A stretch of 64,000 bases of DNA, from positions 62,001 through 126,000 of the forward strand of contig NZ_MKCT01000072.1 of the NCBI RefSeq assembly GCF_001855555.1, in the 5' to 3' direction. Made by a program: the position numbers and the translations under genes. The notes under the pieces were generated by a model. That model was not told where the DNA came from and did not search any database. It saw only the letters and a list, made by a program, of their open reading frames with translations. The stretch comes from Chromobacterium sphagni. GTDB lineage: Bacteria; Pseudomonadota; Gammaproteobacteria; Burkholderiales; Chromobacteriaceae. Shown here piece by piece: positions 3,567-62,901 of the stretch. Each line of letters opens with the position of its first letter. Position 1 is the first letter of the stretch.

Positions 3567-3640
3567 TGGAGCGGGTGAAGGGAATCGAACCCTCGTCGTA
3601 AGCTTGGGAAGCTTCTGCTCTACCATTGAGCTACACCCGC
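3567..3640 (-). tRNA. tRNA-Gly (anticodon CCC)
   Basis: The reverse strand folds as a 74-nt tRNA with encoded CCA. The acceptor stem is GCGGGTG / CACCCGC with discriminator T, the D arm is GCTCAATGGTAGAGC, the anticodon loop is TTCCCAA (CCC at 34-36) and the T arm is AGGGTTCGATTCCCT. It closely resembles E. coli tRNA-Gly(CCC). The outermost anticodon-stem pair (27-43, G/A) looks mismatched. Confidence 0.95.
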
Positions 3641-4067: not shown

Positions 4068-6437
4068 ATGAATATACGCAACCGGATTCTCTTGCTGGTG
4101 TCGGTCAGCTTTCTGTCCATCCTCGCCATTGGCGCTTACGCGGTATGGAAGTCGGACGCCAATGCCGCGGCGGTGAAGTCCGTTACGGAAGGCGAAGTGC
4201 CGAGCGCGCTGGCCTCGGCCGATCTGATCGCGGCGTTGAAGGATGTGCAGCTGGCGACGATGAGCGCGCTGCAGACTGGCGATGCCGGCTTGCAGGCGCA
4301 AGCCAGGGAGCAACTGGCCGCCCGCGAGAGGGCGCTGCGCGCGCAGCTGGCGCTGCAGAAGAAAATGGCCAGCAACACGGTGCAGAGCGGCTTGGTCAGC
4401 CAGGCGCAGGATGTGTTCGACAGCTATCTCGGTTCCATCGACGACGCCATCCAGTTCAAGCAGAGCGGCCAGAACGACCTGGCCGATGCCACCTATGCCG
4501 GCGGCGTGCTGCAGTACCACGACAATCTGCAGCAGATCGTCACCACCTTGCGCGTGGAGAAAAACCGCAGCAAGGACGACGCCATCCTCACCCTGAACCG
4601 CAGCCTGTCCGGCGCCGCCGCCACCCTGGCGTCGGTGACCGTGGCGGCCTTGCTGCTGCTGGGAGGCCTGGGCTGGCTGCTGTACCGCCAGATTGTCGGC
4701 CCGATCCGCAGCATGCAGGCCACCATGAGCGATATCGCCGACAGGCAGGACTTCTCGCGCCGCGTGCCGGTGGAGCGCGAAGATGAGGTCGGCAAGTCCA
4801 TCGTCGCCTTCAACCGCATGGTGGCGCGCATCGAGGAGAGCAGCGCGCTGTTGCGGCAGAAGTCGGGCGACATTCAGGCCATGCTGCAGAACATCCCGCA
4901 GGGCATCCTCACCATCGTCGACGGCCTGGCGGTGCACCAGGAGTACTCGGCGCATCTGGAGACCATCCTGGAGACGCGCGACATCGCCGGCCGCAATCTG
5001 ATTGAGCTGTTGTTCGCCGACTGCCGCTTGGGCGCGGACCAGCTGTCGCAGCTGGAGGCCGCCATCGCCTCCTGCCTGGGCGAAGACAGCATGAATTTCG
5101 AATTCAACCAGCACCTGCTGGCGGGAGAGCTGGAAAAGCGCTGCGCCGACGGCCGGGTCAAGATACTGGATTTGAACTGGTCCATCATCGCCGACGAGCA
5201 TGGCCGGGTGGAGCGGCTGATGCTGTGCGTGCGCGATGTGACCGAACTGAAGGCGCTGGCCGCCGAGGCCAACGAGCAGAAGCGCGAACTGGCGGTCATC
5301 GGCGAAATCCTGGCGGTGAGCCAGGACAAGTTCCACGACTTCATCACCAGCTCCATCCGCTTCGTCGGCGACAACGAGCAGTTGATCCGCCAGCATCCGC
5401 GTGGCGACGCCGAGGCGATCAACCAGCTGTTCCGCAATATGCACACCATCAAGGGCAATGCCCGCACCTACGGGCTGTCCCAGCTCACCAACATCGTGCA
5501 CCTGGCCGAGCAGAGCTACCAACAGCTGCGCCAGCCGCAGCCGGCCATCGCCTGGGACCAGACCCAGTTGCTGGAGGAGTTGGAAAGCGTGCGCGACGGC
5601 GTCGAGCATTACGCCCGCGTCAACGAGGTGAGCCTGGGCCGCAAGGGTCCGGGTCGGGCCGGCGGCGGCGATTACCTGCTGGTGGACCGCGAGCAGATAC
5701 GCGAAACCCTGCAGCGGCTAGAAACCGTCAACACCGGCAATCTGCACGAGCTGATCGCCGTGCACAATAGCGTGCGCGGCGTGCTCAACCGGATGGGCAC
5801 CGAGCCGGTGGGCGAAATCCTGTCGGGCGTGCTGGAGTCCTTGCCTTCGCTGGCGCGCGAACTGGGCAAGGCCGAGCCGCAGGTGCGGATCCGCGACCAC
5901 GGCTACGTGCTGCGCAACCAGATATCCGCCACGCTGAAGAACGCGTTCATGCATCTGATGCGCAACTCGCTGGACCACGGCCTGGAGGCGGTTGACGAGC
6001 GCCAGGCGCTGGGCAAGCCGGCGCGCGGCAGCATCGCGCTGGACTTGACGGTGGCGGACGGCCGGCTGGAGCTGAGCCTGACGGACGACGGCCGCGGCCT
6101 GGCGCTGGGGCGCATCCGCGAGCGGGCCGAGCGCCAGGGCTGGATAACCGACAGCGCCGGCCTCAGCGATGAGGAAGTGGCGCAGTTGATCTTCCGTCCC
6201 GGCTTCTCCACCGCCGCCCAGATCACCGAGGTGTCCGGCCGCGGCGTGGGCATGGACGCGGTGCAGTCCTTTATCAAGCGCGAGCACGGCCGGATAGAGC
6301 TGCGCTTCCTGGATGAGGAGCGGGGCATGGACTTCCGCCGCTTCGCGACGGTGGTGATTCTGCCTGACAGCTGCGCGGTGCCGATGGAGCCGCGCGCCGT
6401 TGCGCCGCTTGGCGTCGTCGACGCCAGCCTGGTTTGA
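4068..6437 (+). CDS. membrane CheA-like hybrid sensor kinase (4HB-HAMP-PAS-like-Hpt-HATPase)
   Basis: Signal-transducing histidine kinase of CheA lineage built into a membrane receptor, 789 aa. Order seen: TM1 about 7-25; four-helix-bundle-like periplasmic part to about 183; TM2 about 184-207; HAMP 208-262 (LYRQIVGPI start); PAS-like segment about 270-385; coiled coil; Hpt domain with phospho-acceptor H459 in MHTIKGNAR; CheA-type ATPase with N box HLMRNSLDHGLE and G boxes DDGRGL and GRGVGMDAV. There is no C-terminal CheW (P5) domain, so it should not couple to receptors through CheW as classical CheA does. It heads a five-gene cluster with CheX-, CheY- and MCP-like proteins; the next gene starts 12 bases after its stop. 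The family assignment is solid; the signal is unknown. Confidence 0.85.
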   Translation: MNIRNRILLLVSVSFLSILAIGAYAVWKSDANAAAVKSVTEGEVPSALASADLIAALKDVQLATMSALQTGDAGLQAQAREQLAARERALRAQLALQKKMASNTVQSGLVSQAQDVFDSYLGSIDDAIQFKQSGQNDLADATYAGGVLQYHDNLQQIVTTLRVEKNRSKDDAILTLNRSLSGAAATLASVTVAALLLLGGLGWLLYRQIVGPIRSMQATMSDIADRQDFSRRVPVEREDEVGKSIVAFNRMVARIEESSALLRQKSGDIQAMLQNIPQGILTIVDGLAVHQEYSAHLETILETRDIAGRNLIELLFADCRLGADQLSQLEAAIASCLGEDSMNFEFNQHLLAGELEKRCADGRVKILDLNWSIIADEHGRVERLMLCVRDVTELKALAAEANEQKRELAVIGEILAVSQDKFHDFITSSIRFVGDNEQLIRQHPRGDAEAINQLFRNMHTIKGNARTYGLSQLTNIVHLAEQSYQQLRQPQPAIAWDQTQLLEELESVRDGVEHYARVNEVSLGRKGPGRAGGGDYLLVDREQIRETLQRLETVNTGNLHELIAVHNSVRGVLNRMGTEPVGEILSGVLESLPSLARELGKAEPQVRIRDHGYVLRNQISATLKNAFMHLMRNSLDHGLEAVDERQALGKPARGSIALDLTVADGRLELSLTDDGRGLALGRIRERAERQGWITDSAGLSDEEVAQLIFRPGFSTAAQITEVSGRGVGMDAVQSFIKREHGRIELRFLDEERGMDFRRFATVVILPDSCAVPMEPRAVAPLGVVDASLV

Positions 6438-6448
6438 GCGGGCGGACA

Positions 6449-7426
6449 ATGGACGCCGCCACGCAGGCCTGCCTGCGCACCAAGGTGCTGGTGCTGGACG
6501 ACAGCGCCGTTTATTCCGGCAGCCTCAAGCATTTTTGCCATGAGCATGAGCTGATCTGCATCCGCCCGCAGCGCGCCGGCGCCGACAGCGTGATGTCCAT
6601 CCTGCGCTCCAATGTCGACCTGGGCGGCATCATGTTGTTCGAACACTACGGCGGCAAGCTGCAGGGGCTGGAGCTGGCGCGGCGCATCCAGGCCGTCAGG
6701 CCGGAGCTGCCCATCTTTTACCGCCGCGAGCAATCATCCAGTCTGGCCGGGCTGTCCGAGCGCGACGCGCTGATGTTCTGCTGCGGCTACGCGCTGAGCG
6801 ATTTGCAGATGCTGCGCGCCGCGCTGGCCTCGTCGATCTTCAGCCGCATCTACCCCAATGAACTGGTGCGCGGCATCGCCGAAATGAGCAAGAGCGCGCT
6901 GGAAATGCTGTTTCTGCGCTGCGAAGTGGCGGTGCAGTCGCCTTTCCTGGCAGTGAAAGACCGCATCGTCTATGGCGAGATGTTCACGCTGATCGCCATC
7001 GAGAGCAGCTGGTGCCGCGGCTACATGATGCTGCAGGCCGAAGAGGCGCCGCTGATGGGGCTGCTGGCGCCGGAAGCCGGGCAGGGCATGGATTTCCGCC
7101 AGCTCAACAGCGCGCTGGGCGAGGCCACCAACCTGATCTGGGGCTCGTTCAAGAACCGCTACGCCGGCGGCGCCAACCAGCAGTCGGCGTCGCTGCTGAC
7201 CCAGGTGCCCATCATCGTCAACCACCAGCGGCGCTATATCTCCTTCGGCTCCGACGACCCGCAGCTGTGCATCAAGTACCAGTTGCGCGACCGCGAGCGC
7301 GCGGATGCGCCGGGTGTCACGCTGGTGCAGCGTTTCGTGTTTAACCTGTGCTGGGCGCCGGACGAATTCCAGGAAAACCCAAGTGTCGAGTCGCTGGTCG
7401 AATCCGGCGAGCTTGAACTCTTTTGA
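6449..7426 (+). CDS. pseudo-receiver / CheX-like fusion protein
   Basis: Cytosolic 325-aa protein. The N-terminus looks like a response-regulator receiver (VLVLDDSAVYSGSLK, acidic pair D17-D18). At the expected phospho-acceptor strand, however, it reads IMLFEHYGG, so the Asp is absent, and no clear conserved Lys follows. The C-terminal half (about 150-310) resembles CheX/CheC phosphatases, with an ALGEATNLIWGSF helix matching the Glu-Asn-Gly signature. The ATG at 6449 is preferred over an in-frame TTG overlapping the kinase stop because GGGCGGA lies just before it. It is probably co-transcribed with the kinase. A role in dephosphorylating the neighbouring CheY is inferred from family knowledge. 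The last residues (SGELELF) recur in the gene at 8657. Confidence 0.7.
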   Translation: MDAATQACLRTKVLVLDDSAVYSGSLKHFCHEHELICIRPQRAGADSVMSILRSNVDLGGIMLFEHYGGKLQGLELARRIQAVRPELPIFYRREQSSSLAGLSERDALMFCCGYALSDLQMLRAALASSIFSRIYPNELVRGIAEMSKSALEMLFLRCEVAVQSPFLAVKDRIVYGEMFTLIAIESSWCRGYMMLQAEEAPLMGLLAPEAGQGMDFRQLNSALGEATNLIWGSFKNRYAGGANQQSASLLTQVPIIVNHQRRYISFGSDDPQLCIKYQLRDRERADAPGVTLVQRFVFNLCWAPDEFQENPSVESLVESGELELF

Positions 7427-7457
7427 ACTTGCAGTGCAATCAGGACGAGGATGGGAA

Positions 7458-7826
7458 ATGGCTCAGGTATTGATGGTTGACGACTCCAGCACAGTGCGCA
7501 AAGAAGTGTGCGACTTTCTCAAGGCCAACGGCATTTCGGTGGTGGCCGCGGTGGACGGCAGGGACGGGCTGGACAAGCTGCGCGCCGATCCCGCCATCAA
7601 GCTGGTGGTCAGCGACGTCAACATGCCGAATATGGACGGCCTGACCATGGCCGAGAAAATCCGCAACGAGCTGAAGAACGCCGCGGTCAACGTGATCATG
7701 CTCACCACCGAGAACAGCTCGGCGATGAAGGAGCGCGGCAAGGCCGCCGGCGTCAAGGGCTGGATTGTCAAGCCGTTCAACGGCGCGGCGGTGTTGCCCA
7801 CCTTCAAGAAGCTGGTTAGCGCTTGA
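7458..7826 (+). CDS. CheY-like response regulator
   Basis: Single-domain receiver of 122 aa. It has all canonical residues: acidic pair D8-D9, phospho-acceptor D53 in VVSDVNMPNMDG, T83 and K105 in the IVKPF loop. It carries no output domain, so it acts by binding a partner as CheY does. The start at 7458 follows GACGAGGATGGGAA; upstream in-frame codons overlap the previous gene and are unlikely. It is the obvious phospho-partner for the Hpt/ATPase kinase at 4068 and target for the CheX-like proteins on either side. Confidence 0.9.
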   Translation: MAQVLMVDDSSTVRKEVCDFLKANGISVVAAVDGRDGLDKLRADPAIKLVVSDVNMPNMDGLTMAEKIRNELKNAAVNVIMLTTENSSAMKERGKAAGVKGWIVKPFNGAAVLPTFKKLVSA

Positions 7827-7874
7827 GGCTTGCAGCCGCGGCCATCGCGGCGGATGCGTGAGAGAAGAATCCAG

Positions 7875-8660
7875 ATGGATGCAGTAAATGTGAGTTTCGT
7901 CTGCGCCGGCCTTGGGCTGGCGCTGTCTTGCTTGTTTGGCTGCGGATTTTGGCGCGAATGCCGCCGTTGCCGCCTGAAGCTGGCGGAGCGCGATGCCCGC
8001 ATTGCTTTGCTGGAGCGGCGCGAACCGCAGGAGACGGCGGAGGCGCGCAGCCTGTTGCGGCTGAAGGAGGCCGAGGCGCGCCATCAATCGGCGCTGCTGG
8101 CGCTGCAGCAGCAATTGCAGCGGATGCCGGAGGAGGCGGAGCGGCTGGCCGAGCAGGCGCGCCGCGAAGCGCTGACGCAATCGCGCCAGGAATCGCTGCA
8201 GGCGCTCGAGCAGGTGCGCGCGGCGCTGCGCAGCGAGCAGGCGGTGCTGGCCGGCGATGTCGAGCTATTGCTGGGCCTGGTGAAAACCATAGAGCGCTGG
8301 CACGAGGAAATGCAGGCCATCCTGGTGAACAACCGCCGCTTGAAGGAGCAGAACGAAAGCTTCGCCACCATCGTCAAGAGCGTGGTGATGCTGGCGCTCA
8401 ACGCCTCCATCGAGGCGGCCCGTGCCGGCGAGCACGGCCGCGGCTTCTCGGTGGTGGCCGACGGCGTACGGCAGCTTGCCGGCAACGCCGCCGAGTTGTC
8501 CGGCGAGTACAAGAAAAACCTGGAGCGCAACGACCTGGTTACCACCGCCACCTTCCAGGACTTGCAGGCCTGCGGCAACATGATACGCACTGCGGTGTTC
8601 GGCCTGAAGGCGTCCAGCGAACGGATCCTGGCAAGGCTGGACAGCGAGGGGGCGGCATGA
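7875..8660 (+). CDS. membrane-anchored protein with MCP signalling hairpin
   Basis: 261-aa protein with one N-terminal membrane segment (about residues 5-24), a long charged coiled coil (about 30-130), and a short methyl-accepting chemotaxis hairpin whose tip reads [22 protein letters not shown]. It lacks a periplasmic or recognisable sensing domain and is much shorter than a normal MCP. It may be an adaptor or scaffold that couples a coiled-coil input to the signalling tip. The start at 7875 follows GAGAGAAGAA. Its stop overlaps the next start (ATGA). Whether it contacts the CheA-like kinase, which has no CheW domain, is unknown. Confidence 0.75.
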
Positions 8661-9211
8661 TCTCGGCCGCCGCCGCCGAGTCGCTGGACCTGATCTGCCG
8701 CCAGGCCTTGCTCGACAGCTGCGGGGCTTGCATGGTGCATGCGTTGGGCCAGGCCATGCCCAAGGCGGATCCGGCGGCCAATGAGCTGATCCTGCTGAAT
8801 ATCTCGTCCTACCACTTCCGCTTCGCCATGTTGTTCCATTTCGACGACAGCCCGGCGCTGCGCGCGCAATTGGCCAGTTGGACGCGCAGCCATGCGCCGC
8901 TGGACCGGCATGCGTTGCGCGATGCCCATGGCGAGATGGCCAATCTGATCAGCGGTGCGGTCAACCGCTCCTTGTGCGTGCCCTTCCGCCATGTCGGCAT
9001 GTCCACCCCGCTGGGCTTGGGCGGCGGCTGTCTGCGGCACATCGACATGCTGGGCGCCGCGCTGCGTCGCGGCTATGAGGTGGAGATGGCGGAGGGGGCC
9101 CGCTTCTGGATGACCACCTGCCTTTATCTGTCCACCGGCGCCAGCCTGGATTTCCGCTATCGCCCGCCGATGCTTGTGGAGGAGAGCGCCGGCGAGTTGG
9201 AGCTGTTCTGA
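8657..9211 (+). CDS. CheX-like protein
   Basis: 184-aa protein translated from an ATG that overlaps the previous stop by 4 bases, so expression is probably coupled. The central helix [16 protein letters not shown] fits the CheC/CheX signature of Glu, Asn and Gly spaced along a helix, and the overall size fits a CheX domain with extra N-terminal residues. Its C-terminus ends GELELF, identical to the last six residues of the pseudo-receiver/CheX fusion at 6449. A phosphatase role towards CheY is inferred, not shown. It is the last gene of the cluster. Confidence 0.6.
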
Positions 9212-9684: not shown

Positions 9685-10293
9685 ATGGTTTCAAATAATT
9701 TGCAGGTAAGGCGGAAGATGCTCAGGTTGTCGCAGGCCGCGCTGTCGGGAATGGCGCTGGCGATTTTGTCGCTCGGCGCGGCCCAGGCTGCCGAGGCCGT
9801 GCAGCCGTACCGGGGGGCGCTGAAATGCCAGGCGCGGGGAATGGACGATGTCTGGCTGGATCAGCGCCTAGCCTGCATATCGCCGGGGCAGAAGTTCATC
9901 GTCAATGCCGCCGGGGCCAGCGGGCTACCGCGCGATGTGGCCTATGTGGTGAACGAGGCCATCTACGACAAGAATTTTTATCTGATCAATGACCGCAAGG
10001 TGCGCTACTACCAGTCCTTCCTGTGCGTGCGCAATGCGCCGCAGGGTATCCGGCCGCTATTTTTGTCCGGCGACCTCGCCAATGCGCTCAAGCTCAGCAA
10101 TCTGGATCAGAAGCCGGACGGCGTGGGGCCGACTTCGGTGAACATCGCCGGTGGCGACCGCGATGGCTGGGAAGCGATGCCATGCGATCCGGCCCGGCAC
10201 CCGCTGATCGTCGATTACGGCACCGGGATGGTGGTGTCGGTCAATCCGATGGCTTTGCCCGGTCTGAAGATTTACCAGCTGCCGTATCACTGA
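9685..10293 (+). CDS. exported protein of unknown function
   Basis: 202-aa protein with a positively charged start, a hydrophobic stretch (about residues 18-34) and a signal-peptidase-like site after AQA (AAQAAEA), so it is probably periplasmic or secreted. The mature part has four cysteines that could form two disulfides (in ALKCQ, RLACI, SFLCV and AMPCD). I do not recognise the family. The start is supported by AGGAAAC 8-14 bases upstream. It converges on, and overlaps by 7 bases, the SgrR-type regulator gene on the other strand. Confidence 0.7.
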   Translation: MVSNNLQVRRKMLRLSQAALSGMALAILSLGAAQAAEAVQPYRGALKCQARGMDDVWLDQRLACISPGQKFIVNAAGASGLPRDVAYVVNEAIYDKNFYLINDRKVRYYQSFLCVRNAPQGIRPLFLSGDLANALKLSNLDQKPDGVGPTSVNIAGGDRDGWEAMPCDPARHPLIVDYGTGMVVSVNPMALPGLKIYQLPYH

Positions 10294-54309: not shown

Positions 54310-55842
54310 ATGAAAGCCTGGCGTTTTCTGCTGTGCGTGTCTCTGGCCCTGCCCGCGGCCAGCCATGCCGCCTATCCCGACGATCTGAAACTCACCACCT
54401 GGAACGCGATGCTGCTGCCGCAGGCCTTGTATCCCAACTATGGCCAGATGCGGCGGGTGGAATTGATGGCGGCGTCGCCCATCCTGCAGCACCAGGACGT
54501 GGTGGTGTTTCAGGAGCTGCAAGACAATGTTGCCTCGGAACATCTGTACCAGCGGCTGAAGCCGCGCTTTCCCTACCAGACGCCGGTGATCGGCCGCACC
54601 CAGCAGGGCTGGGACTCGACCGAAGGTTGGGACGCCATGAGGCCGGAAGATGGCGGCGTCGGCATTCTTAGCCGCTGGCCGATAGTGGAGCAGCGCCAGT
54701 ACCTGTACCGCACGCCGGGTTGCAGCTGGGACGGTCAGGCGCTGAAGGGCTTCGCCTACGCCAAGATCAATGTGGGCGGCCAGTTCTACCACGTGATCGG
54801 CACCCACCTGCAGTCGGAGGACGGCGGCTGCCGCAACCATGCCGACATCGCGGTGCGCCAGGGCCAGCTGCGCGAGATGGCGGCCTGGATCCAGGCGCGC
54901 CAGCTGCCGCCGGAAGAGCCGGTGATCATCGCCGGCGACATGAACACCGACCGGCATAAAACCGCCGAATACCAGGCGCTGCTGAACATCCTGCAAGTGA
55001 ACGAGCCGCGCTATGTCGGCATGCCGGACAGCTTCGATACCCGCAACAACGGCATTGCGCTGGAGCGCTACGGCGCGCGCAGCGGCGATGCGCCGGAATA
55101 CATCGACTACATCCTGCTGCTGAAGGGGCACCGCCAGCCGGCGATGTGGCACAACCTGGCGCTGGACGCGCCGTCGCCGCAATGGACGGCGCAGTCGGCG
55201 GTAGCGAAGCAGACCTATGCCTACACCGATTTCAGCGACCACTATCCGGTCCAGGCCTTCGCCTGGGCCGACGCGGCCACGCCCACCCATTCATTGACCG
55301 CCCCTGCCGGAAGTTACCGCCAGATCAGCCTGCAAAACCTAGCCAACGGCCGCTACGTGCAAAGCGCCGACAGCAACGACGGCTGGTTGAAAACCCGCGC
55401 CGCTGCGGCGGGGCCACAGGCGCAATTCAACCTGTCCAATAATTTCTCGATGCGCGACAACGGCTGCGTGCGCTCCGGCGAGTACGTGCGGCTGGAGCGC
55501 GCCGACCGTCCGGGCTGGTTCTGGAACTGGTGGGGCACAGTGGGCGGCAACCAGTACGCCTATTACACCGCGCAAGGGCCGCTGAATCATTCGCCGGAAC
55601 TCAGGCTGGTCAACCAGAGCCGACCGGACGGCTGCCTGCAGGATGGCGACGTGGTGTCGCTGAAGGACTGGGCGCGGGCGGCCGACTACTATCTCACCGC
55701 CTGGAGCGGCGGCGGCCATGCCGACCAGCTCTATCTCTGGCAGCCGTCAATCGGCGACGGCGAGCGCTTCCGCGTACGGATCGGCGGCGCGGGCCAGTAC
55801 CTGGATTGGCAGTCGCAATTGGTCTACGCCAAGCGGCGTTGA
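54310..55842 (+). CDS. secreted sphingomyelinase C-like phosphodiesterase
   Basis: 510-aa exported enzyme: signal peptide (residues 1-20, ending SHAA), then an endonuclease/exonuclease/phosphatase fold (about 25-317) with metal and catalytic residues in VVFQELQDN, GTHLQSEDGGC, AGDMNTDR and DFSDHYPVQ. It resembles bacterial neutral sphingomyelinases (haemolysins). The C-terminal 180 residues form a separate beta-rich domain that may bind carbohydrate or membrane. AAGGAT precedes the ATG. It is directly upstream of the vio promoter. Confidence 0.85.
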   Translation: MKAWRFLLCVSLALPAASHAAYPDDLKLTTWNAMLLPQALYPNYGQMRRVELMAASPILQHQDVVVFQELQDNVASEHLYQRLKPRFPYQTPVIGRTQQGWDSTEGWDAMRPEDGGVGILSRWPIVEQRQYLYRTPGCSWDGQALKGFAYAKINVGGQFYHVIGTHLQSEDGGCRNHADIAVRQGQLREMAAWIQARQLPPEEPVIIAGDMNTDRHKTAEYQALLNILQVNEPRYVGMPDSFDTRNNGIALERYGARSGDAPEYIDYILLLKGHRQPAMWHNLALDAPSPQWTAQSAVAKQTYAYTDFSDHYPVQAFAWADAATPTHSLTAPAGSYRQISLQNLANGRYVQSADSNDGWLKTRAAAAGPQAQFNLSNNFSMRDNGCVRSGEYVRLERADRPGWFWNWWGTVGGNQYAYYTAQGPLNHSPELRLVNQSRPDGCLQDGDVVSLKDWARAADYYLTAWSGGGHADQLYLWQPSIGDGERFRVRIGGAGQYLDWQSQLVYAKRR

Positions 55843-56185
55843 GCGCAGGGGCCTGGCATGTCTCATTTTCCTGATGCTGGGCCTGATACTTAGAACAGGT
55901 TGTCTCATTTTGTCAGACAATATTCTTGAGGAATAATTTTCTTTAGACTATTGTCTCTCAATTCCATATGAATTTAATTTTCAATAATTACATTTAATTA
56001 GTATTTTTTGTTCAGGACTGGATAAGGCGCGCGGCCTGCCGCAAAGGAAAAACGATAGCGGAAAAGGCGCGGCTTTCATCCTGCAGGACTGGCGATTCCA
56101 TAGCTTGACACTCCACCCACCTGATTTGAATCTTCCCGGCCGCTTGCGCGGTCCGGGCATGCAGATTGAATAGAGGGATTTCGTG
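55843..56185. other. vioA upstream region and leader
   Basis: 343 bases. The left two thirds (55870-56010) are strikingly AT-rich compared with the window. It holds a candidate promoter and CTG...CAG dyad (55883-55937), a leader of about 240 bases, and a second perfect TTGACA at 56105-56110 without a clear -10. The 9-mer CAGGACTGG is repeated at 56013 and 56084. The vioA Shine-Dalgarno is AGAGGGA at 56172-56178. Confidence 0.5.
55883..55937 (+). promoter_or_regulatory. candidate vio operon promoter with CviR-like dyad
   Basis: TTGTCA (55910-55915), 16-base spacer, AATAAT (55932-55937). CTGATACTTAGAACAG at 55883-55898 has CTG...CAG ends like the CviR box CTGNCC-N4-GGNCAG (recalled), matching 9 of 12 fixed bases, and is centred about 54 bases before the expected transcript start. 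TTGTC-A-GACAA (55910-55920) is a further palindrome on the -35 box. Binding of a CviR orthologue is inferred. Confidence 0.5.
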
Positions 56186-57442
56186 ATGAAGCATCGTTCG
56201 GATATTTGCATTGTCGGCGCGGGAATCAGCGGCTTGAGCTGTGCCACGCATTTGCTGGAATCATCGGCCTGCCGCGGCCTGTCCATCAGGATCTTCGACA
56301 TGCAGGCTGAGGCCGGAGGACGCATCCGCTCGCGAAGTCTGGATGGCAAAGCGGCGATCGAACTGGGGGCCGGGCGCTATTCCCCGCAATTGCATCCGCA
56401 TTTCCAGCGCATGATGCAAAGCTACAGCCAGAAGAGCGAAAGCTACCCCTTCACCCAGTTGAAATTCAAAAGCCATACCCAGCAGAAGCTGAAGAACGCG
56501 ATGCGGGAGCTGTCCCCCCGTTTGAAAGAGCACGGTAAGGAATCTTTTCTCAATTTCGTCAGCCGCTATCAAGGCAAGGAATCCGCTGTCGGAATGATCA
56601 AGTCCATGGGCTACGACGCGTTGTTCCTGCCCAATATCTCGGCCGAGATGGCCTACGACATCGTCGGCAAGCATCCCGAAATCCAGAGCTTCACCGAAAA
56701 CGACGGCAATCAATGGTTTTCCGCGGAGGAAGGCTTCAACGGCCTGATCGCGCAGATGAAGGACAAGGTGAAGGCCGGCGGCGCCAAGTTCAGCCTGGGA
56801 TTCCGCCTGCTCTCGGTCAGCCGCGACGACGAAGGCTATTGCCTGAGCCTGGTGGGAGAGGACGGCTGGCAACTGACCCACCACGCCCGGCATTTGATCC
56901 TGGCCATTCCGCCGTCGGCGATGGCCACGCTCAACCTCAACTTCCCCGAGGAGTGGAGTCCGTCCCGCTACGGCTCTTTGCCCTTGTTCAAGGGTTTTCT
57001 GGCTTACGACGAAGCCTGGTGGAAGGACTACAGGTTGGAAGACCAGGTGCTGATCGTGGACAACCCGTTGCGCAAGGTTTACTTCAAGAGCGACAAATAC
57101 GTTTTCTTCTACACCGACAGCGAAATGGCCGGCTATTGGCGCGCCCGCGTCGCCGATGGCGAGGAGGGGTATCTAGAACAGGTCCGCCACCACCTGGCGG
57201 ACGCGTTGGGCATCGCCAAGGACAGGATTCCCCAGCCCAGCCAGCACATCCACAAATATTGGGCGCACGGCGTCGAATTTTGCCAGGACGCGGCTGCCGA
57301 GCACCCTGCGGCCTTGCTGCACCGGGACAACGGCATCATCGCCTGTTCCGACGCCTATACCGAGCATTGCGGCTGGATGGAGGGCGGACTGCTCAGCGCC
57401 AGGGAGGCCAGCGGCATCTTGCTGCAGCGGATCGCCGGATGA
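56186..57442 (+). CDS. vioA: L-tryptophan oxidase VioA
   Basis: 418-aa FAD-dependent L-amino-acid oxidase that starts violacein synthesis by converting L-tryptophan to its imine. The N-terminal dinucleotide-binding motif is VGAGISGLS. The residues known to bind substrate in C. violaceum VioA are conserved at the same numbers: R64 (ELGAGRY), H163, K269 (PLFKG) and Y309 (FFYTDSE). The ATG at 56186 gives the family length; an adjacent GTG three bases before is less likely. First gene of the vio operon. Confidence 0.98.
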
Positions 57443-57454
57443 GTAGCGGGAGGG

Positions 57455-57470
57455 CTGTCCCAAGGCACTG
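57455..57470. promoter_or_regulatory. CviR-box-like sequence between vioA and vioB
   Basis: CTGTCCCAAGGCACTG matches 10 of the 12 fixed positions of the recalled CviR consensus CTGNCC-N4-GGNCAG, and its first 11 bases are the reverse complement of the site I recall for C. violaceum vioA. It lies in the 50-base vioA-vioB gap, an unexpected place, so it may be chance. Confidence 0.3.
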
Positions 57471-57492
57471 AATCCATCCATCCGGGAGCAAT

Positions 57493-60486
57493 ATGAGCAT
57501 TCTTGATTTTCCGCGTCTGCATTTCAGGGGATTCGCGCGCGTCAACGCGCCGACCGCCAACCGCAATGTCCAGGGCCATATCGATATGGCCAGCAATACG
57601 GTATTGATGGATGGCCGGCCATTCGATCTATCCCGGCCGCCTGCCGAGTTCCATCGGCATCTGCACCAATCCGGCCCCAGGTTCGACCGGGAAGGCAGGC
57701 CTGCCGACGATGGCGTGTTCAGCCTGGCCAGCGGCTACAACGCCTGCGGCAACAATCATTTCTCTTGGGAGAACGCGGTTGTCACCCATGTCCAGCCGAC
57801 GGCCGGCGGCCATGATGAGCATGACGGCCTGGTCGGCGCCAGGCTGGCGCTGTGGGGGCACTACAACGAGTATCTGCGCACTACCTTCAACCGCGCGCGC
57901 TGGGTGGACAATGATCCCACCCGGCCGGACGCGACGCAGATCTATGCCGGACAATTGACCCTCTCCCCGCGCGGCGCGACCGCCCATGCGCCGCATCTGT
58001 TCACCGCCGATATCGCCCAGGCCCATGGCGCGCGCTGGGTGAGGGGCGGGCATGTCTGCGAGCGTTCCGGCCATTTTCTGGACGATGAATTCGCGCTGGC
58101 GCGGGTGTTCCAGTTTTCCCTGTCCAAGAAAGACCCGTATTTCCTGTTCAATCTGCAGGGGCTGGATTCGGCGGCGTTGCGGCAGATGCAGCAGGCGCTG
58201 GAGGACGAAGATGTGCTGGGGCTGACCGTCCAGTACGCGCTGTTCAATATGTCCACGCCGCCGCAGCCGGACTCGCCGGTGTTTCACGATTTGGTCGGGG
58301 TGGCGGGCCTGTGGCGCCGCAAGGAGCTGGCCAGCTATCCGGCCGGCCGCCTGCTGCAGTCGGCCGCGCCGGGGCTGGGGCCGCTGACGCTGAAAATCCA
58401 CGCTGGCCAGGTTTCGCTCAATATGTGCACGGCTATTCCGTTCACCACCCGGGAAGAGGGGCCCGCGCCCGGCCGGCCTACCCACGCGCTGGGCGGCAAG
58501 CTCCCCCTGGGCGACCTGCTGCTGAAGGACCGCGCGGGGACAGTCGTGGCCAGGGTGCCGCAGGCGCTGTATCTGGACTACTGGCGCAATCACGGCATTC
58601 TGGATGTGCCTTTGCTTGGCGCGCCGTCGGGCTCGCTGGCGCTGGAGAGCGCCATGGCGCGCTGGGAGGAAGTGGACTGGGTATCGCAGTCCGATGCCAA
58701 CAATTTGTATCTGGAAGCGCCCGACCGCGCCCGCCAGCGCTTCTTTCCCGAACGTATCACGGTCAAGAGCTATTACCGCGGCGAGCACCGGCCGCGGCCC
58801 GCGATTCCTTTTCAGATTACCGGCGGCGGCCAGGCCTCCGTGGAGACGCGGCAGCGCGACGGCGACATGGAGTGGCTGGTGACCGGACAGCAGCCGGGCA
58901 TCGCCCGCATCGTGCTGGACCACGGCGCGCAGACCATCAATCTGCGCGTCCTGCCGGACGACTGGCAGCTGGACGAGGTGCCGGCGGAGCAGGTGGATTA
59001 CGCCTTCCTGTACCGGAATGTGATGGCGTACTACGAACTGATCTATCCCTTCATGTCAGACAAGGTGTTCAGCCTGGCCGACCGTTGCAAGTGCGATACC
59101 TATGCCCGGCTGATGTGGCAGATGTGCGATCCGCAAAACCGCGACAAAAGCTATTACATGCCAAGCACCCGGGAGCTGTCCCGGCCCAAGGCCGGACTGT
59201 TTCTGAAATACCTGGCCAATGTGGAGGGCGCCACCCGCTTGCTGGCGCCGGCGCCGCAGCAGCCGGCTCGCATCGAGAACAAGGCGCAGTTGGTGGCGGC
59301 GCTGAAAAAGGCGGTGGATCTGGAACTGTCCATCATGCTGCAGTACGTCTACGCCGCCTATTCCATTCCCAATTACGCGCAGGGGCAGGATATGGTGCAG
59401 GCCGGCCAGTGGAGCCAGGCGCAGTTGGAGCTGGCCTGCGGCGGCGGCGAGCGGCGGCGCGACAGCGGCATCCGCGGCGCGATACTGGAAGTGGCGCACG
59501 AGGAGATGATCCACTACCTGCTGGTGAACAATCTGCTGATGGCGCTGGGCGAGCCTTTCCATCCCGGAGAGGCTCTGTTCGGCCAGCAGGCGCAGCAGGC
59601 CTTCGGACTGGACACCGAGCTGTCCTTCGAACCGTTTTCCGAATATGTGCTGGCGCGCTTCATCAAGCTGGAATGGCCGGGCTTCATCCCGGCGCCGGCC
59701 AAGTCCATCTCCGCTTTCTACGCGTCGATTCTGCAGGCGTTGGAGGAGTTGCCCGGCCTGTTCGGCGATGCCGGCGGCAAGCAGGGCGGCGAGCACCATC
59801 TGTTTCTCAATGAACTGACCAACCGCGCGTTTCCCGCTTATCAGCTGGAGGTGTCCGACCGCGACAGCGCGCTGTTCGCCATCCGTTTCGTCACCGAACA
59901 GGGGGAGGGCGGCGCGGTGGACTCGCCGCATTTCGAGCATTCGCACTTCCAGCGCCTGCGCAGCCTTGCCGGCCGGCTGATGGCGCAGCCGGTGCCTTTC
60001 GAGCCGGCCTTGCCGGTATTGAAAAACCCAGTGCTGGAGGCGGTGGCGGGAGGCAATCTGGTGACGGACGCCAGGGCCCGCGCAGTGATGAAGCTGTATC
60101 AGAGTGGCTACGAACTGATGCAGGCGATGATGGCGCAGCATTTCGCGGTGAGGCCGTTGGGTAGCCTCAGGCGTTCCCGGTTGATGAACGCGGCGATAGA
60201 CATGATGACCGGCCTGTTGCGTCCGCTGTCCACGGCATTGATGAACATGCCGTCCGGTGTTCCGGGCAGGAACGCCGCGCCGCCGGTTCCGCGGTCTTTC
60301 GAATGCCGGGTGTTTGACGATTACAGCCTGGGTTGCCAGATGCTGGCCAAGCGCTGTCGGGCGCTGATCGACTACACGGCCGGCCTGGAGGCGGACTGGG
60401 TGGCGGTTCCGCAGCGCGAACTGCTGGACTTCTATTATCAGCACTTGATGGATTTGGCTTGTGGAAAGCTTACAAGAGAGGCCTGA
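57493..60486 (+). CDS. vioB: iminophenyl-pyruvate dimer synthase VioB
   Basis: 997-aa heme- and diiron-type enzyme (RebD relative) that couples two indole-3-pyruvate imines to the short-lived dimer used by VioE. The C-terminal ferritin-like domain (about 605-800) carries candidate metal ligands E611 (VDLELS) and E666, H669, E670 (EVAHEEMIH). The length is that of the C. violaceum protein, less one residue. GGGAG lies 7 bases before the ATG, 50 bases after vioA. Confidence 0.97.
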   Translation: MSILDFPRLHFRGFARVNAPTANRNVQGHIDMASNTVLMDGRPFDLSRPPAEFHRHLHQSGPRFDREGRPADDGVFSLASGYNACGNNHFSWENAVVTHVQPTAGGHDEHDGLVGARLALWGHYNEYLRTTFNRARWVDNDPTRPDATQIYAGQLTLSPRGATAHAPHLFTADIAQAHGARWVRGGHVCERSGHFLDDEFALARVFQFSLSKKDPYFLFNLQGLDSAALRQMQQALEDEDVLGLTVQYALFNMSTPPQPDSPVFHDLVGVAGLWRRKELASYPAGRLLQSAAPGLGPLTLKIHAGQVSLNMCTAIPFTTREEGPAPGRPTHALGGKLPLGDLLLKDRAGTVVARVPQALYLDYWRNHGILDVPLLGAPSGSLALESAMARWEEVDWVSQSDANNLYLEAPDRARQRFFPERITVKSYYRGEHRPRPAIPFQITGGGQASVETRQRDGDMEWLVTGQQPGIARIVLDHGAQTINLRVLPDDWQLDEVPAEQVDYAFLYRNVMAYYELIYPFMSDKVFSLADRCKCDTYARLMWQMCDPQNRDKSYYMPSTRELSRPKAGLFLKYLANVEGATRLLAPAPQQPARIENKAQLVAALKKAVDLELSIMLQYVYAAYSIPNYAQGQDMVQAGQWSQAQLELACGGGERRRDSGIRGAILEVAHEEMIHYLLVNNLLMALGEPFHPGEALFGQQAQQAFGLDTELSFEPFSEYVLARFIKLEWPGFIPAPAKSISAFYASILQALEELPGLFGDAGGKQGGEHHLFLNELTNRAFPAYQLEVSDRDSALFAIRFVTEQGEGGAVDSPHFEHSHFQRLRSLAGRLMAQPVPFEPALPVLKNPVLEAVAGGNLVTDARARAVMKLYQSGYELMQAMMAQHFAVRPLGSLRRSRLMNAAIDMMTGLLRPLSTALMNMPSGVPGRNAAPPVPRSFECRVFDDYSLGCQMLAKRCRALIDYTAGLEADWVAVPQRELLDFYYQHLMDLACGKLTREA

Positions 60487-60487
60487 A

Positions 60488-61777
60488 ATGCAGAAAGCGA
60501 TAATTGTGGGAGGGGGCTTGGCGGGCGGTTTGACCGCCATCTACCTGGCGCGCAGAGGATATGAGGTGCACGTGGTGGAGAAGAGGGGCGATCCATTGCA
60601 GGATCTGTCCTCCTATGTGGACGTGGTCAGCTCGCGCGCGATAGGCGTCAGCATGACGGTGCGGGGAATCAAGGCGGTGCTGGCCGCCGGCATTCCGCGC
60701 GCGGAACTGGACCAGTGCGGCGAGCCGATTGTCGGCATGGCCTTTTCAGTGGGGGGCAAGTTCCGCATCCGCGAGCTGAAGCCGCTGGAGGATCTGTATC
60801 CGCTGTCGCTGAACCGCGCCGCTTTCCAGCGGCTGCTGAACCGGCACGCCAACCAGAACGGCGTCCGCTACCATTTCGAGCACAAGTGCCTGGATGTCGA
60901 TCTGGACGGAAAGTCGGTGCTGATCCAGGGCAAGGACGGCGATCTGCAGCGTTTGAACGGCGACATGATCATAGGCGCCGATGGCGCGCACTCGGCGGTG
61001 CGGCAGGCGATGCAGAGCGGCATGCGCCGCTTCGCGTTCCAGCAGACCTTTTTCCGCCACGGCTACAAGACGCTGGTGTTGCCCGATGCGCAGGCTCTGG
61101 GCTACCGCAAGGACCTGCTGTATTTCTTCGGCATGGATTCCGGCGGTCTGTTCGCCGGCCGCGCGGCCACCATTCCGGACGGCAGCGTTAGCATCGCGGT
61201 CTGCCTGCCGTATACCGGCAGCCCCAGCCTGGCCACCCAGGACCGCCAGGTGATGAAGGCGTTTTTCCAGCGCTACTTCGGCAGCCTGTCCGACGTGGTG
61301 CGGGAGGAAATGCTGGAGCAGTTCCTGACCAAGCCCAGCAACGATCTGATCAACGTCCGCTCCAGCACCTTCAACTACAAGGGCAATGTGCTGCTGCTGG
61401 GCGACGCCGCGCACGCCACCGCGCCCTTCCTGGGGCAGGGCATGAATATGGCGCTGGAAGACGCCCACGCCTTCGTCACCCTGCTGGATCAGCATGGCCA
61501 CGATCTGGAACTGGCCTTCGAGGCGTTCACCGTGCAGCGTAAGGTGCAGGCCGATGCGATGCAGGACATGGCGCGCGCCAACTACGACGTGCTCAGCTGT
61601 TCCAATCCCATCTTCTTTCTGCGTGCCCGCTACACCCGCTACATGCACCAGAAATTTCCCGAGTTCTATCCGCCGGACATGGCGCAGAAGCTGTATTTCA
61701 CCTCCGAGCCGTACGACAAATTGCAAAGCATCCAGAAGAAACAGAACGTCTGGTACAAATTGGGAAGGGTCAACTGA
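60488..61777 (+). CDS. vioC: violacein synthase, FAD monooxygenase VioC
   Basis: 429-aa class A flavin monooxygenase that hydroxylates protodeoxyviolaceinic or proviolaceinic acid at the 2-position, giving violacein or deoxyviolacein after oxidation. GGGLAGG dinucleotide motif at the start, IGADGAHSAVR (DG motif) and GDAAHATAPFLGQG (FAD ribityl motif). The ATG at 60488 lies one base after the vioB stop; an upstream in-frame start is inside vioB and is rejected. Confidence 0.98.
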   Translation: MQKAIIVGGGLAGGLTAIYLARRGYEVHVVEKRGDPLQDLSSYVDVVSSRAIGVSMTVRGIKAVLAAGIPRAELDQCGEPIVGMAFSVGGKFRIRELKPLEDLYPLSLNRAAFQRLLNRHANQNGVRYHFEHKCLDVDLDGKSVLIQGKDGDLQRLNGDMIIGADGAHSAVRQAMQSGMRRFAFQQTFFRHGYKTLVLPDAQALGYRKDLLYFFGMDSGGLFAGRAATIPDGSVSIAVCLPYTGSPSLATQDRQVMKAFFQRYFGSLSDVVREEMLEQFLTKPSNDLINVRSSTFNYKGNVLLLGDAAHATAPFLGQGMNMALEDAHAFVTLLDQHGHDLELAFEAFTVQRKVQADAMQDMARANYDVLSCSNPIFFLRARYTRYMHQKFPEFYPPDMAQKLYFTSEPYDKLQSIQKKQNVWYKLGRVN

Positions 61778-62901
61778 TGAAGAAAATACTGGTTATCGGC
61801 GCCGGACCGGCGGGTTTGATGTTCGCCAGCCAATTGAAGCTGGCGAAGCCTGACTGGCGGATCAGCATCGTGGAAAAGAACGATCCGCAAGAGGTGGCGG
61901 GCTGGGGCGTGGTGCTGCCAGGCAAACCGGGCCAGCATCCGGCCAATCCGCTGTCCTATCTGGAGCGGCCGGAAACGCTGGACCCGCAGTTTGTGGAAGA
62001 TTTCAAGCTGGTCCACCATAACGAGCCCAACCTGATGAGCACCGGCGTGCTGCTGTGCGGCGTGGAGCGGCGCGGCCTGGTGCAGGCGCTGCGCGCCCGC
62101 TGCCAGTCGCTGGGCATAGACATCCGCTATGAATCGCCGCTGCTGTCAGAGGAGCAGCTGCCGCTGGACGACTACGACCTGATCGTGGCGGCCAACGGCA
62201 TCAATCACAAGACCTCGCACTTCACCGAGGCGCTGGCGCCGCAGCTGGCATACGGCAGCAACAAGTACATCTGGTACGGCACCAGCCAGCTGTTCGACCA
62301 GATGAATCTGGTGTTCCGCACTCACGGCAAGGATATCTTCATCGCCCACGCCTACAAGTACTCCAGCCGGATGAGCACCTTCGTGGTGGAGTGCAGCGAG
62401 GAAACCTTTGCCCGCGCGCGGCTGGGGGAGATGTCCGAGGAGGCGGCGGCGGAATACATCGCCGGCGTATTCAAGGCCGAGTTGAATGGCCACGGCCTGG
62501 TGGCGCAGCCGGGTCTGGGTTGGCGCAACTTCATGACGCTGAGCCACGACCGGTCCTACGACGGCAAGCTGGTGCTGATCGGCGACGCGCTGCAGTCCGG
62601 TCATTTCTCCATCGGCCACGGTACCACCATGGCGGTGGTGGTGGCGCAACTGCTGGTGAAAGCGCTGTGTGCCGAATCCAGTGTGGCCGCGGCGCTGGCC
62701 AGCTTCGACGCGCGCGCGATGCCGCTGGTGAAGCTTTTCAGCGAGCACGCCAACAGCAGCCGCGACTGGTTCGAAACCGTGGACGGCCGCATGCATCTGA
62801 GCAATGCCGAGTTCATGCAGAGCTTCGACGCCCGCCGCAAGGCGTTGCCGCCGCTGCCGGAGGCGTTGGCGCGCAATCTCGGCTACGCGCTCGACCGCTG
62901 A
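61777..62901 (+). CDS. vioD: FAD-dependent hydroxylase VioD
   Basis: 374-aa class A flavin monooxygenase that hydroxylates protodeoxyviolaceinate at the 5-position of one indole to give proviolaceinate, the step that decides violacein against deoxyviolacein. VIGAGPAGLMFA dinucleotide motif, GDALQSGHFSIGHG ribityl motif. The start overlaps the vioC stop (TGATG). Confidence 0.97.
   Translation: MKKILVIGAGPAGLMFASQLKLAKPDWRISIVEKNDPQEVAGWGVVLPGKPGQHPANPLSYLERPETLDPQFVEDFKLVHHNEPNLMSTGVLLCGVERRGLVQALRARCQSLGIDIRYESPLLSEEQLPLDDYDLIVAANGINHKTSHFTEALAPQLAYGSNKYIWYGTSQLFDQMNLVFRTHGKDIFIAHAYKYSSRMSTFVVECSEETFARARLGEMSEEAAAEYIAGVFKAELNGHGLVAQPGLGWRNFMTLSHDRSYDGKLVLIGDALQSGHFSIGHGTTMAVVVAQLLVKALCAESSVAAALASFDARAMPLVKLFSEHANSSRDWFETVDGRMHLSNAEFMQSFDARRKALPPLPEALARNLGYALDR

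Follow-up and report, generated by a model that had tools for sequence, protein, structure and literature searches.

A co-conserved five-gene chemosensory-like cassette without its own CheW, in which two CheX proteins end in a common peptide

A 64,000-nucleotide stretch of the Chromobacterium sphagni genome (contig NZ_MKCT01000072.1, positions 62,001 to 126,000; hereafter the window) carries, at window positions 4068-9211, a chemosensory-like cassette of five genes that recurs as a set across related bacteria. The genes, lettered A to E here, lie together in 5.1 kb of the plus strand, just where the initial annotation of this DNA had placed five tightly spaced genes; neighbors are 11 to 48 bases apart, except for one pair that overlaps by 4. 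They encode a membrane receptor histidine kinase (A), a pseudo-receiver fused to CheX (B), a CheY-type response regulator (C), a membrane-anchored hairpin of the methyl-accepting chemotaxis protein (MCP) type (D), and a second CheX-fold protein (E). The set is real and self-contained and, because 74 of 80 loci hold all five genes, it is not a chance assembly. Chemosensory systems include the classes F, Tfp, and ACF; unlike these, the cassette is without a CheW adaptor of its own.

Drawing on the composition, predicted folds, catalytic residues, common C-terminal tail, and co-conservation observed here, we infer a circuit of phosphotransfer and dephosphorylation. A would sense a periplasmic or membrane signal, autophosphorylate at His459 of its Hpt domain, and pass the phosphate to Asp53 of C, from which B and E, as predicted phosphatases, would remove it. 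A flexible GELELF tail would dock both B and E on one common component. D would serve as a membrane-anchored scaffold that keeps the parts at a set distance from the membrane, and its MCP tip may make contact with the ordinary chemosensory array. Receptor-kinases would be interchangeable around a fixed D-E-B-C core, with output passing through C to flagellar behavior. As a whole—transfer from A to C, removal by tail-docked B and E, and D as scaffold—we give this reading a probability of roughly 60%; the docking partner and the output are its least certain parts.

Conservation of the cassette

A profile of B, searched against one genome per species, returned 234 relatives, of which the best 80 loci were analyzed and 154 weaker ones lay outside the analysis. 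Chosen for having B, these loci speak to the company that B keeps and not to the frequency of the other genes in its absence. Most carry betaproteobacterial names; some are Pseudomonas-labelled and other metagenome assemblies. Environmental carriers of the cassette include Pseudogulbenkiania subflava and Herbaspirillum frisingense GSF30. Complete sets come in the orders A-D-E-B-C (47 loci), A-B-C-D-E (18), and D-E-B-C-A (7), with A-D-E-B-C-A and D-E-B-C-A-A found once each. The six incomplete loci read D-E-B-C (two), D-E-E-B-C with E split, A-B-C, B-C, and B alone, and four of them (L054, L063, L078, and L084) stop at a contig edge. Far from being rarely together, then, the five genes are co-conserved in three main orders, which supports the earlier proposal that they act as one circuit; their joint action at the biochemical level is our extrapolation from this.

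Searches with the other genes gave a similar assortment of arrangements. Among 61 related genomes, including that of the window, A found seven carriers at an E-value of 1e-40: four of the 19 genomes of the window's own genus and three others. Apart from the window, four of these are arranged A-B-C-D-E and two A-C-D-E. A profile of E over 369 genomes of the class added four further carriers, and one of B over 398 genomes of the phylum found four besides the window's own, one of them common to the E-profile set. Five of the resulting seven loci are A-D-E-B-C; genome G299 has D-E-B-C plus two unlinked A-type kinases, and in genome G292 the locus is reduced to D, E, and a truncated A. In the decayed locus L027 (8718-11019), A stops after about 300 residues and is followed by D, E, and short open reading frames (ORFs) that by eye resemble transposase fragments.

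A receptor-kinase that is not a CheA

Gene A (4068-6437) encodes a membrane receptor histidine kinase of 789 residues. Pfam places a four-helix sensor at 4068-4547 (4HB_MCP_1, just under the cut-off) and, all over their cut-offs, HAMP at 4677-4838, Hpt at 5376-5597 (His459 codon, 5442-5444), and HATPase_c at 5937-6335; a weak PAS match marks a PAS-like segment (4869-5240) that separates HAMP from Hpt. A is thus the membrane sensor with Hpt and CheA-type ATPase, and without CheW, that had been described from the sequence. The accompanying label of a receptor-CheA fusion holds for the CheA-like Hpt and ATPase but is loose, A having neither H-kinase_dim nor CheW. According to the excerpt of PMC10782961 that treats the point, the four core domains of CheA co-occur invariably. 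We read H-kinase_dim and CheW as two of the four, and A, in which Hpt and HATPase_c are present and these two missing, falls outside that definition.

The same holds across 57 A-type kinases (one from the window, 51 out of 77 in the named loci, and five from further genomes): Hpt and HATPase_c are present in every one, and the 10 families listed at an E-value of 0.001 include neither CheW (P5) nor H-kinase_dim (P3). His459 and eight further residues of the Hpt and ATP sites are kept in 78/78 sequences from the named loci and the window, the set that also underlies the residue counts given below for B, C, and E. The sensor part, by comparison, is variable, with HAMP in 42 of the 57 kinases, 4HB_MCP_1 in 38, 7TMR-DISM in six, TarH in four, and a few PAS variants. 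Since the sensors vary in this way, and two kinases accompany a single core in loci L066 and L073 and in genome G299, it appears that several exchangeable receptor-kinases may feed one constant D-E-B-C core. Pairwise distances were compared over the 72 loci that have a plain order (any of the three): among B, C, D, and E the correlations are 0.85-0.93, and between A and these four they are 0.64-0.75.

Two CheX proteins and a CheY

Gene B (6449-7426) begins at an ATG; a TTG at 6434 would overlap A. Its pseudo-receiver occupies about 6482-6838 and its CheX match (PF13690) 6986-7279, and the predicted structure has a receiver-fold N-terminus followed by a CheX C-terminus (mean predicted local distance difference test score, pLDDT, 85.1; Foldseek probability 1.00 to solved CheX proteins). 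Gene E (8657-9211) matches CheX weakly in Pfam (E-value 0.005), and its predicted structure has the CheX fold (mean pLDDT 91.8), with Foldseek probabilities of 1.00 to Thermotoga maritima CheX (1xko) and to Borrelia burgdorferi CheX in its complex with CheY (3hzh). Gene C (7458-7826; Asp53 codon, 7614-7616) is a single-domain regulator by its Pfam match to Response_reg, sharing 37-44% identity with the three CheYs from the same genome used for comparison. The fusion, the CheY, and the second CheX-like protein named in the initial annotation are therefore all borne out.

The phosphatase motif of the CheX/CheC family is an E-x-x-N pair followed by a conserved proline. In B, Glu225 and Asn228 are present in 81/81 sequences; in E, Glu93 (codon 8933-8935) and Asn96 (8942-8944) are present in 77/79, the other two being gaps. 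Profile alignments match both pairs to the same residues of solved CheX proteins and show the conserved proline after them. Because the Glu and Asn are kept and matched in this way, B and E both look like working phosphatases, and we predict that they are. The two proteins resemble one another weakly outside their common tail. In C, Asp8, Asp9, and Asp53 are present in 80/80 sequences.

The receiver of B is a different matter. Its phosphoacceptor position, located by where predicted strand 3 ends, is a glutamate (Glu65; codon 6641-6643) in 80/81 sequences, with one gap; Arg92 is kept in 81/81 and Arg93 in 80/81. In the Burkholderiaceae genus g314, the match to B in 19 genomes covers little beyond the CheX part and the tail. 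The four of these 19 that were inspected are all A-D-E-B-C, with a B of 213-214 residues in three and an ambiguous start in the fourth, and a variant tail, G-A-L-E-[LM]-F. The receiver may be a conserved but dispensable regulatory add-on.

A common C-terminal tail

B and E end alike. In the window both finish with GELELF and a stop codon (7406-7426 in B and 9191-9211 in E, identical), and throughout the collection the last six residues follow G-E-L-[ED]-[LMF]-F. Position by position, the 81 B sequences have G (81), E (79), L (81), E (54) or D (27), L (75; M in five, F in one), and F (81). The 78 E sequences, limited to those ending in F or L and with one broken fragment dropped, have G (78), E (74), L (76), E (78), L (59; M in 13, F in six), and F (77). 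The tail is recognizable in 81/81 B and 78/78 E ends. Residues ahead of it are variable in E, and pLDDT is low at the end of that protein.

The tail is also private to these genes. A degenerate DNA pattern for G-E-[LF]-[DE]-[ILMF]-F plus stop, which also admits TGG and allows no mismatch, has just two matches in the window's own genome of 4.74 Mb, one terminating B and the other E, and no third copy. Ten carrier genomes gave 18 matches, against none for the reversed pattern, and by coordinates 17 of the 18 are B or E ends in known loci; the remaining one, in contig 29 of G299, is at another site and continues into TGG, which means that it is not a tail. Ordinary CheX proteins made a weak control: 30 loci were fetched and ORFs obtained for 15, several clearly not in the CheX frame, and the one tail-bearing ORF among them (L155) is a B. 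Among eight regions with receiver-CheX fusions elsewhere, one has a tail-bearing relative of B that is unlinked. This second B-type protein (L190, 5897-6871; tail SGELEFF) lies away from the cassette, near kinase-like and receiver-like genes. Separately, the D protein of locus L030 (9081-9896) ends DVDFELDF, loosely resembling the B/E tail.

Just ahead of its tail, B mostly reads V-[EDG]-x-[LM]-[VF]-[ED]-[SA], a stretch absent from E. It resembles the VDDLLESLGF ending (compare V-E-x-L-V-E-S) of a protein encoded between CheY and a CheA-like gene in the same genome, which by its place and ending we take to be CheZ, and is similar to the EEVDALL with which the FliM of that genome starts. CheZ and FliM bind CheY through such segments, and on that ground C is favored as the partner of the tail. 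We propose that the tail docks B and E on one common component; for C, the leading candidate, the odds seem about even, with A or D the choice otherwise. Two known motifs were considered and set aside. For a CheR-binding pentapeptide, an MCP-like protein of the same genome ends SWEEF, a different motif; and a sliding-clamp motif is unlikely, its leading glutamine being missing.

An MCP hairpin on the membrane

Gene D (7875-8660) encodes an N-terminal membrane helix, a long coiled coil, and an MCP signaling hairpin (MCPsignal, 8295-8522; tip, 8412-8447). MCPsignal is its one Pfam family, and Pfam detects no ligand-binding or other sensing domain in it, in keeping with its first description. Two positions in D are valine in 88% and 75% of sequences, where 11 other MCP-type ORFs from the fetched loci have threonine and asparagine in 91% and 82%; both groups were picked by the tip pattern, and the comparison is limited to positions outside it. 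W142-H143 are nearly invariant (76-78 of 78), as are T226-F227 and Q231 of the returning arm, making this spot a candidate contact site. There is a two-hybrid precedent for such contact, the MCP PA2573 binding the receiver protein PA2572 in the extract of PMC3411652 at hand.

The strongest competing explanation starts from this hairpin. The cassette could be an accessory input to the flagellar chemotaxis array, in which the tip of D joins the array through CheW encoded elsewhere, and C, B, and E adjust the main pool of CheY instead of making up a circuit of their own. The tip pattern E-A-A-R-A-G ... G-R-G-F is indeed retained in 75 of 78 D proteins (two are variant and one is cut), with 137-163 residues from membrane helix to tip in those 75 and a returning arm of 77-84. 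Moreover, both CheW and FliM are present in 14/14 genomes carrying the cassette or part of it. Pfam finds no CheW in the five cassette proteins; across the 104 contigs (4.74 Mb) of the window's genome, CheW has nine matches, all outside the cluster. The converse, CheW-free carriers as proof that D is independent, found no such genome among these 14. We nonetheless consider this explanation unlikely, though it deserves to be taken seriously: none of the 57 kinases scanned has a CheW (P5) domain, D departs from other MCP-type ORFs at its two valines, B and E share a private tail, and C is just 37-44% identical to the CheYs compared.

Weighing the circuit

Several observations count against the proposed circuit, or limit its generality. 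Linkage is broken away from a contig edge in locus L046, where E lies elsewhere in the genome, and in L095, where no E was found in the genome; two genomes from the A search have no B beside the remaining genes. The receptor-kinase of L030 has no visible membrane part. The receiver of B is not frozen everywhere, with Asp (L030) or Thr (L038) at the phosphoacceptor position of distant B proteins. The CheZ-like stretch is in B only, and E is strongly conserved only in its last six residues; with no such counterpart in E, the partner of the tail may not be C. The universal CheW of the 14 carriers means that D could bring a dependence on CheW, and the same 14 genomes fall in seven family codes, so that the support they lend on output is modest.

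That support lies in FliM, found in all 14 as against 118 of 229 genomes in a sample of the class. We regard this as a modest hint of motility, and output is probably flagellar behavior through C. An output gene flanking the cassette was rejected: none of the neighboring gene families reaches beyond 10 of the 80 loci, by a rough grouping of unannotated ORFs chosen by length. The largest neighbor groups are confined to Paraburkholderia, Herbaspirillum, or Aquabacterium-like loci. A few groups, of five to six loci, extend over more than one genus; they include an MCP-like ORF (five loci) and a protein that by eye is formate-dehydrogenase-like (six loci). A role as a defense system was likewise dismissed, PADLOC giving one weak receiver match only.

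A rather unlikely alternative to motility is an output in cyclic diguanylate (c-di-GMP) or another enzyme activity, phospho-C binding a cyclase or phosphodiesterase as PdcC does PdcA, and B and E acting like PdcB. In its favor, the text available of the review PMC9899790 describes Pdc as a betaproteobacterial circuit that pairs a response regulator with a CheC/CheX phosphatase. Against it stand the association with FliM and the lack of a neighbor family in more than 10 loci, where groups were unannotated and no search was aimed at cyclases. Patchy presence (the kinase is in 4/19 genomes of its own genus) and the one decayed locus, L027, might be taken for a chance grouping or the decaying remnant of a chemotaxis operon, but 74 of 80 complete loci, invariant active sites, and a tail recognizable at every B and E end contradict this, and we give it almost no credence.

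Preferring, then, phosphotransfer from A to C with removal by docked phosphatases, one may ask how far that circuit stands apart. It could represent a separate, CheW-independent chemosensory class, built of exchangeable receptor-kinases on a fixed core, with a private peptide recruiting both phosphatases to the same site and a B receiver that in most species would mimic phosphorylation and bias the circuit. We advance this fuller claim tentatively, at a little short of even odds.

Surroundings in the window

A promoter scan found no sigma-70-like site upstream of A on the plus strand. Upstream of the cassette lies a tRNA gene (3570-3640, minus strand), the sole Rfam match of the window at the gathering threshold, and directly downstream a 202-residue protein (9685-10293) with, by eye, a signal-like start and no NCBIfam match at an E-value of 1e-10. 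Farther along, the violacein genes vioA, vioB, vioC, and vioD (56183-62901) all score over NCBIfam cut-offs; just upstream of them, the gene at 54310-55842 is over the cut-off for a sphingomyelin phosphodiesterase family.

Relation to known systems

If the proposed circuit is correct, chemotaxis parts can build a complete pathway without a CheW baseplate. The cassette offers a compact and testable instance of an MCP tip with none of its usual partner genes alongside, and the common tail is a novel docking-peptide candidate for phosphatases of the CheX type. Relatives of B number 234 in one genome collection, yet the five-gene composition is described nowhere among the literature matches listed.

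Partial likenesses do exist, as far as the excerpts of the three papers concerned allow comparison. The Flm pathway of Comamonas testosteroni is, like the cassette, betaproteobacterial and without its own CheB and CheR (PMC6391922), but its FlmC is CheW-like and its FlmA, of class Tfp, is CheA-like, and CheX does not appear in that excerpt; with its CheW-like protein, Flm was rejected as the same system. In PA2571-PA2572-PA2573 of Pseudomonas aeruginosa (PMC3411652) an orphan MCP sits beside a kinase and a receiver protein, as in the cassette, and the MCP-receiver interaction was seen by two-hybrid analysis while that of kinase and regulator was not. The excerpt mentions neither CheW nor CheX, and the parts differ: a HisKA kinase, a receiver-YN-GYP regulator, and an MCP with HAMP. 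In PdcABC of Burkholderia thailandensis (PMC9899790), a CheC/CheX-domain phosphatase restrains a response regulator whose output is a PAS-GGDEF cyclase. Compared by description only, the pairing of regulator and phosphatase is that of the cassette; however, the cyclase is encoded with them, unlike in the cassette, where Pfam finds no GGDEF domain among the five proteins, and the excerpt names no receptor-kinase, MCP hairpin, or second CheX.

Classical chemosensory systems, composed of CheA, CheW, MCP, and CheY with CheC/CheX or CheZ, have in common with the cassette a CheA-like Hpt and ATPase, a CheY, an MCP hairpin, and the CheX fold. From these the cassette departs in having no CheW, CheR, or CheB, and in combining sensor and kinase in one protein, with two CheX proteins that share a tail and an MCP that has no sensing domain.

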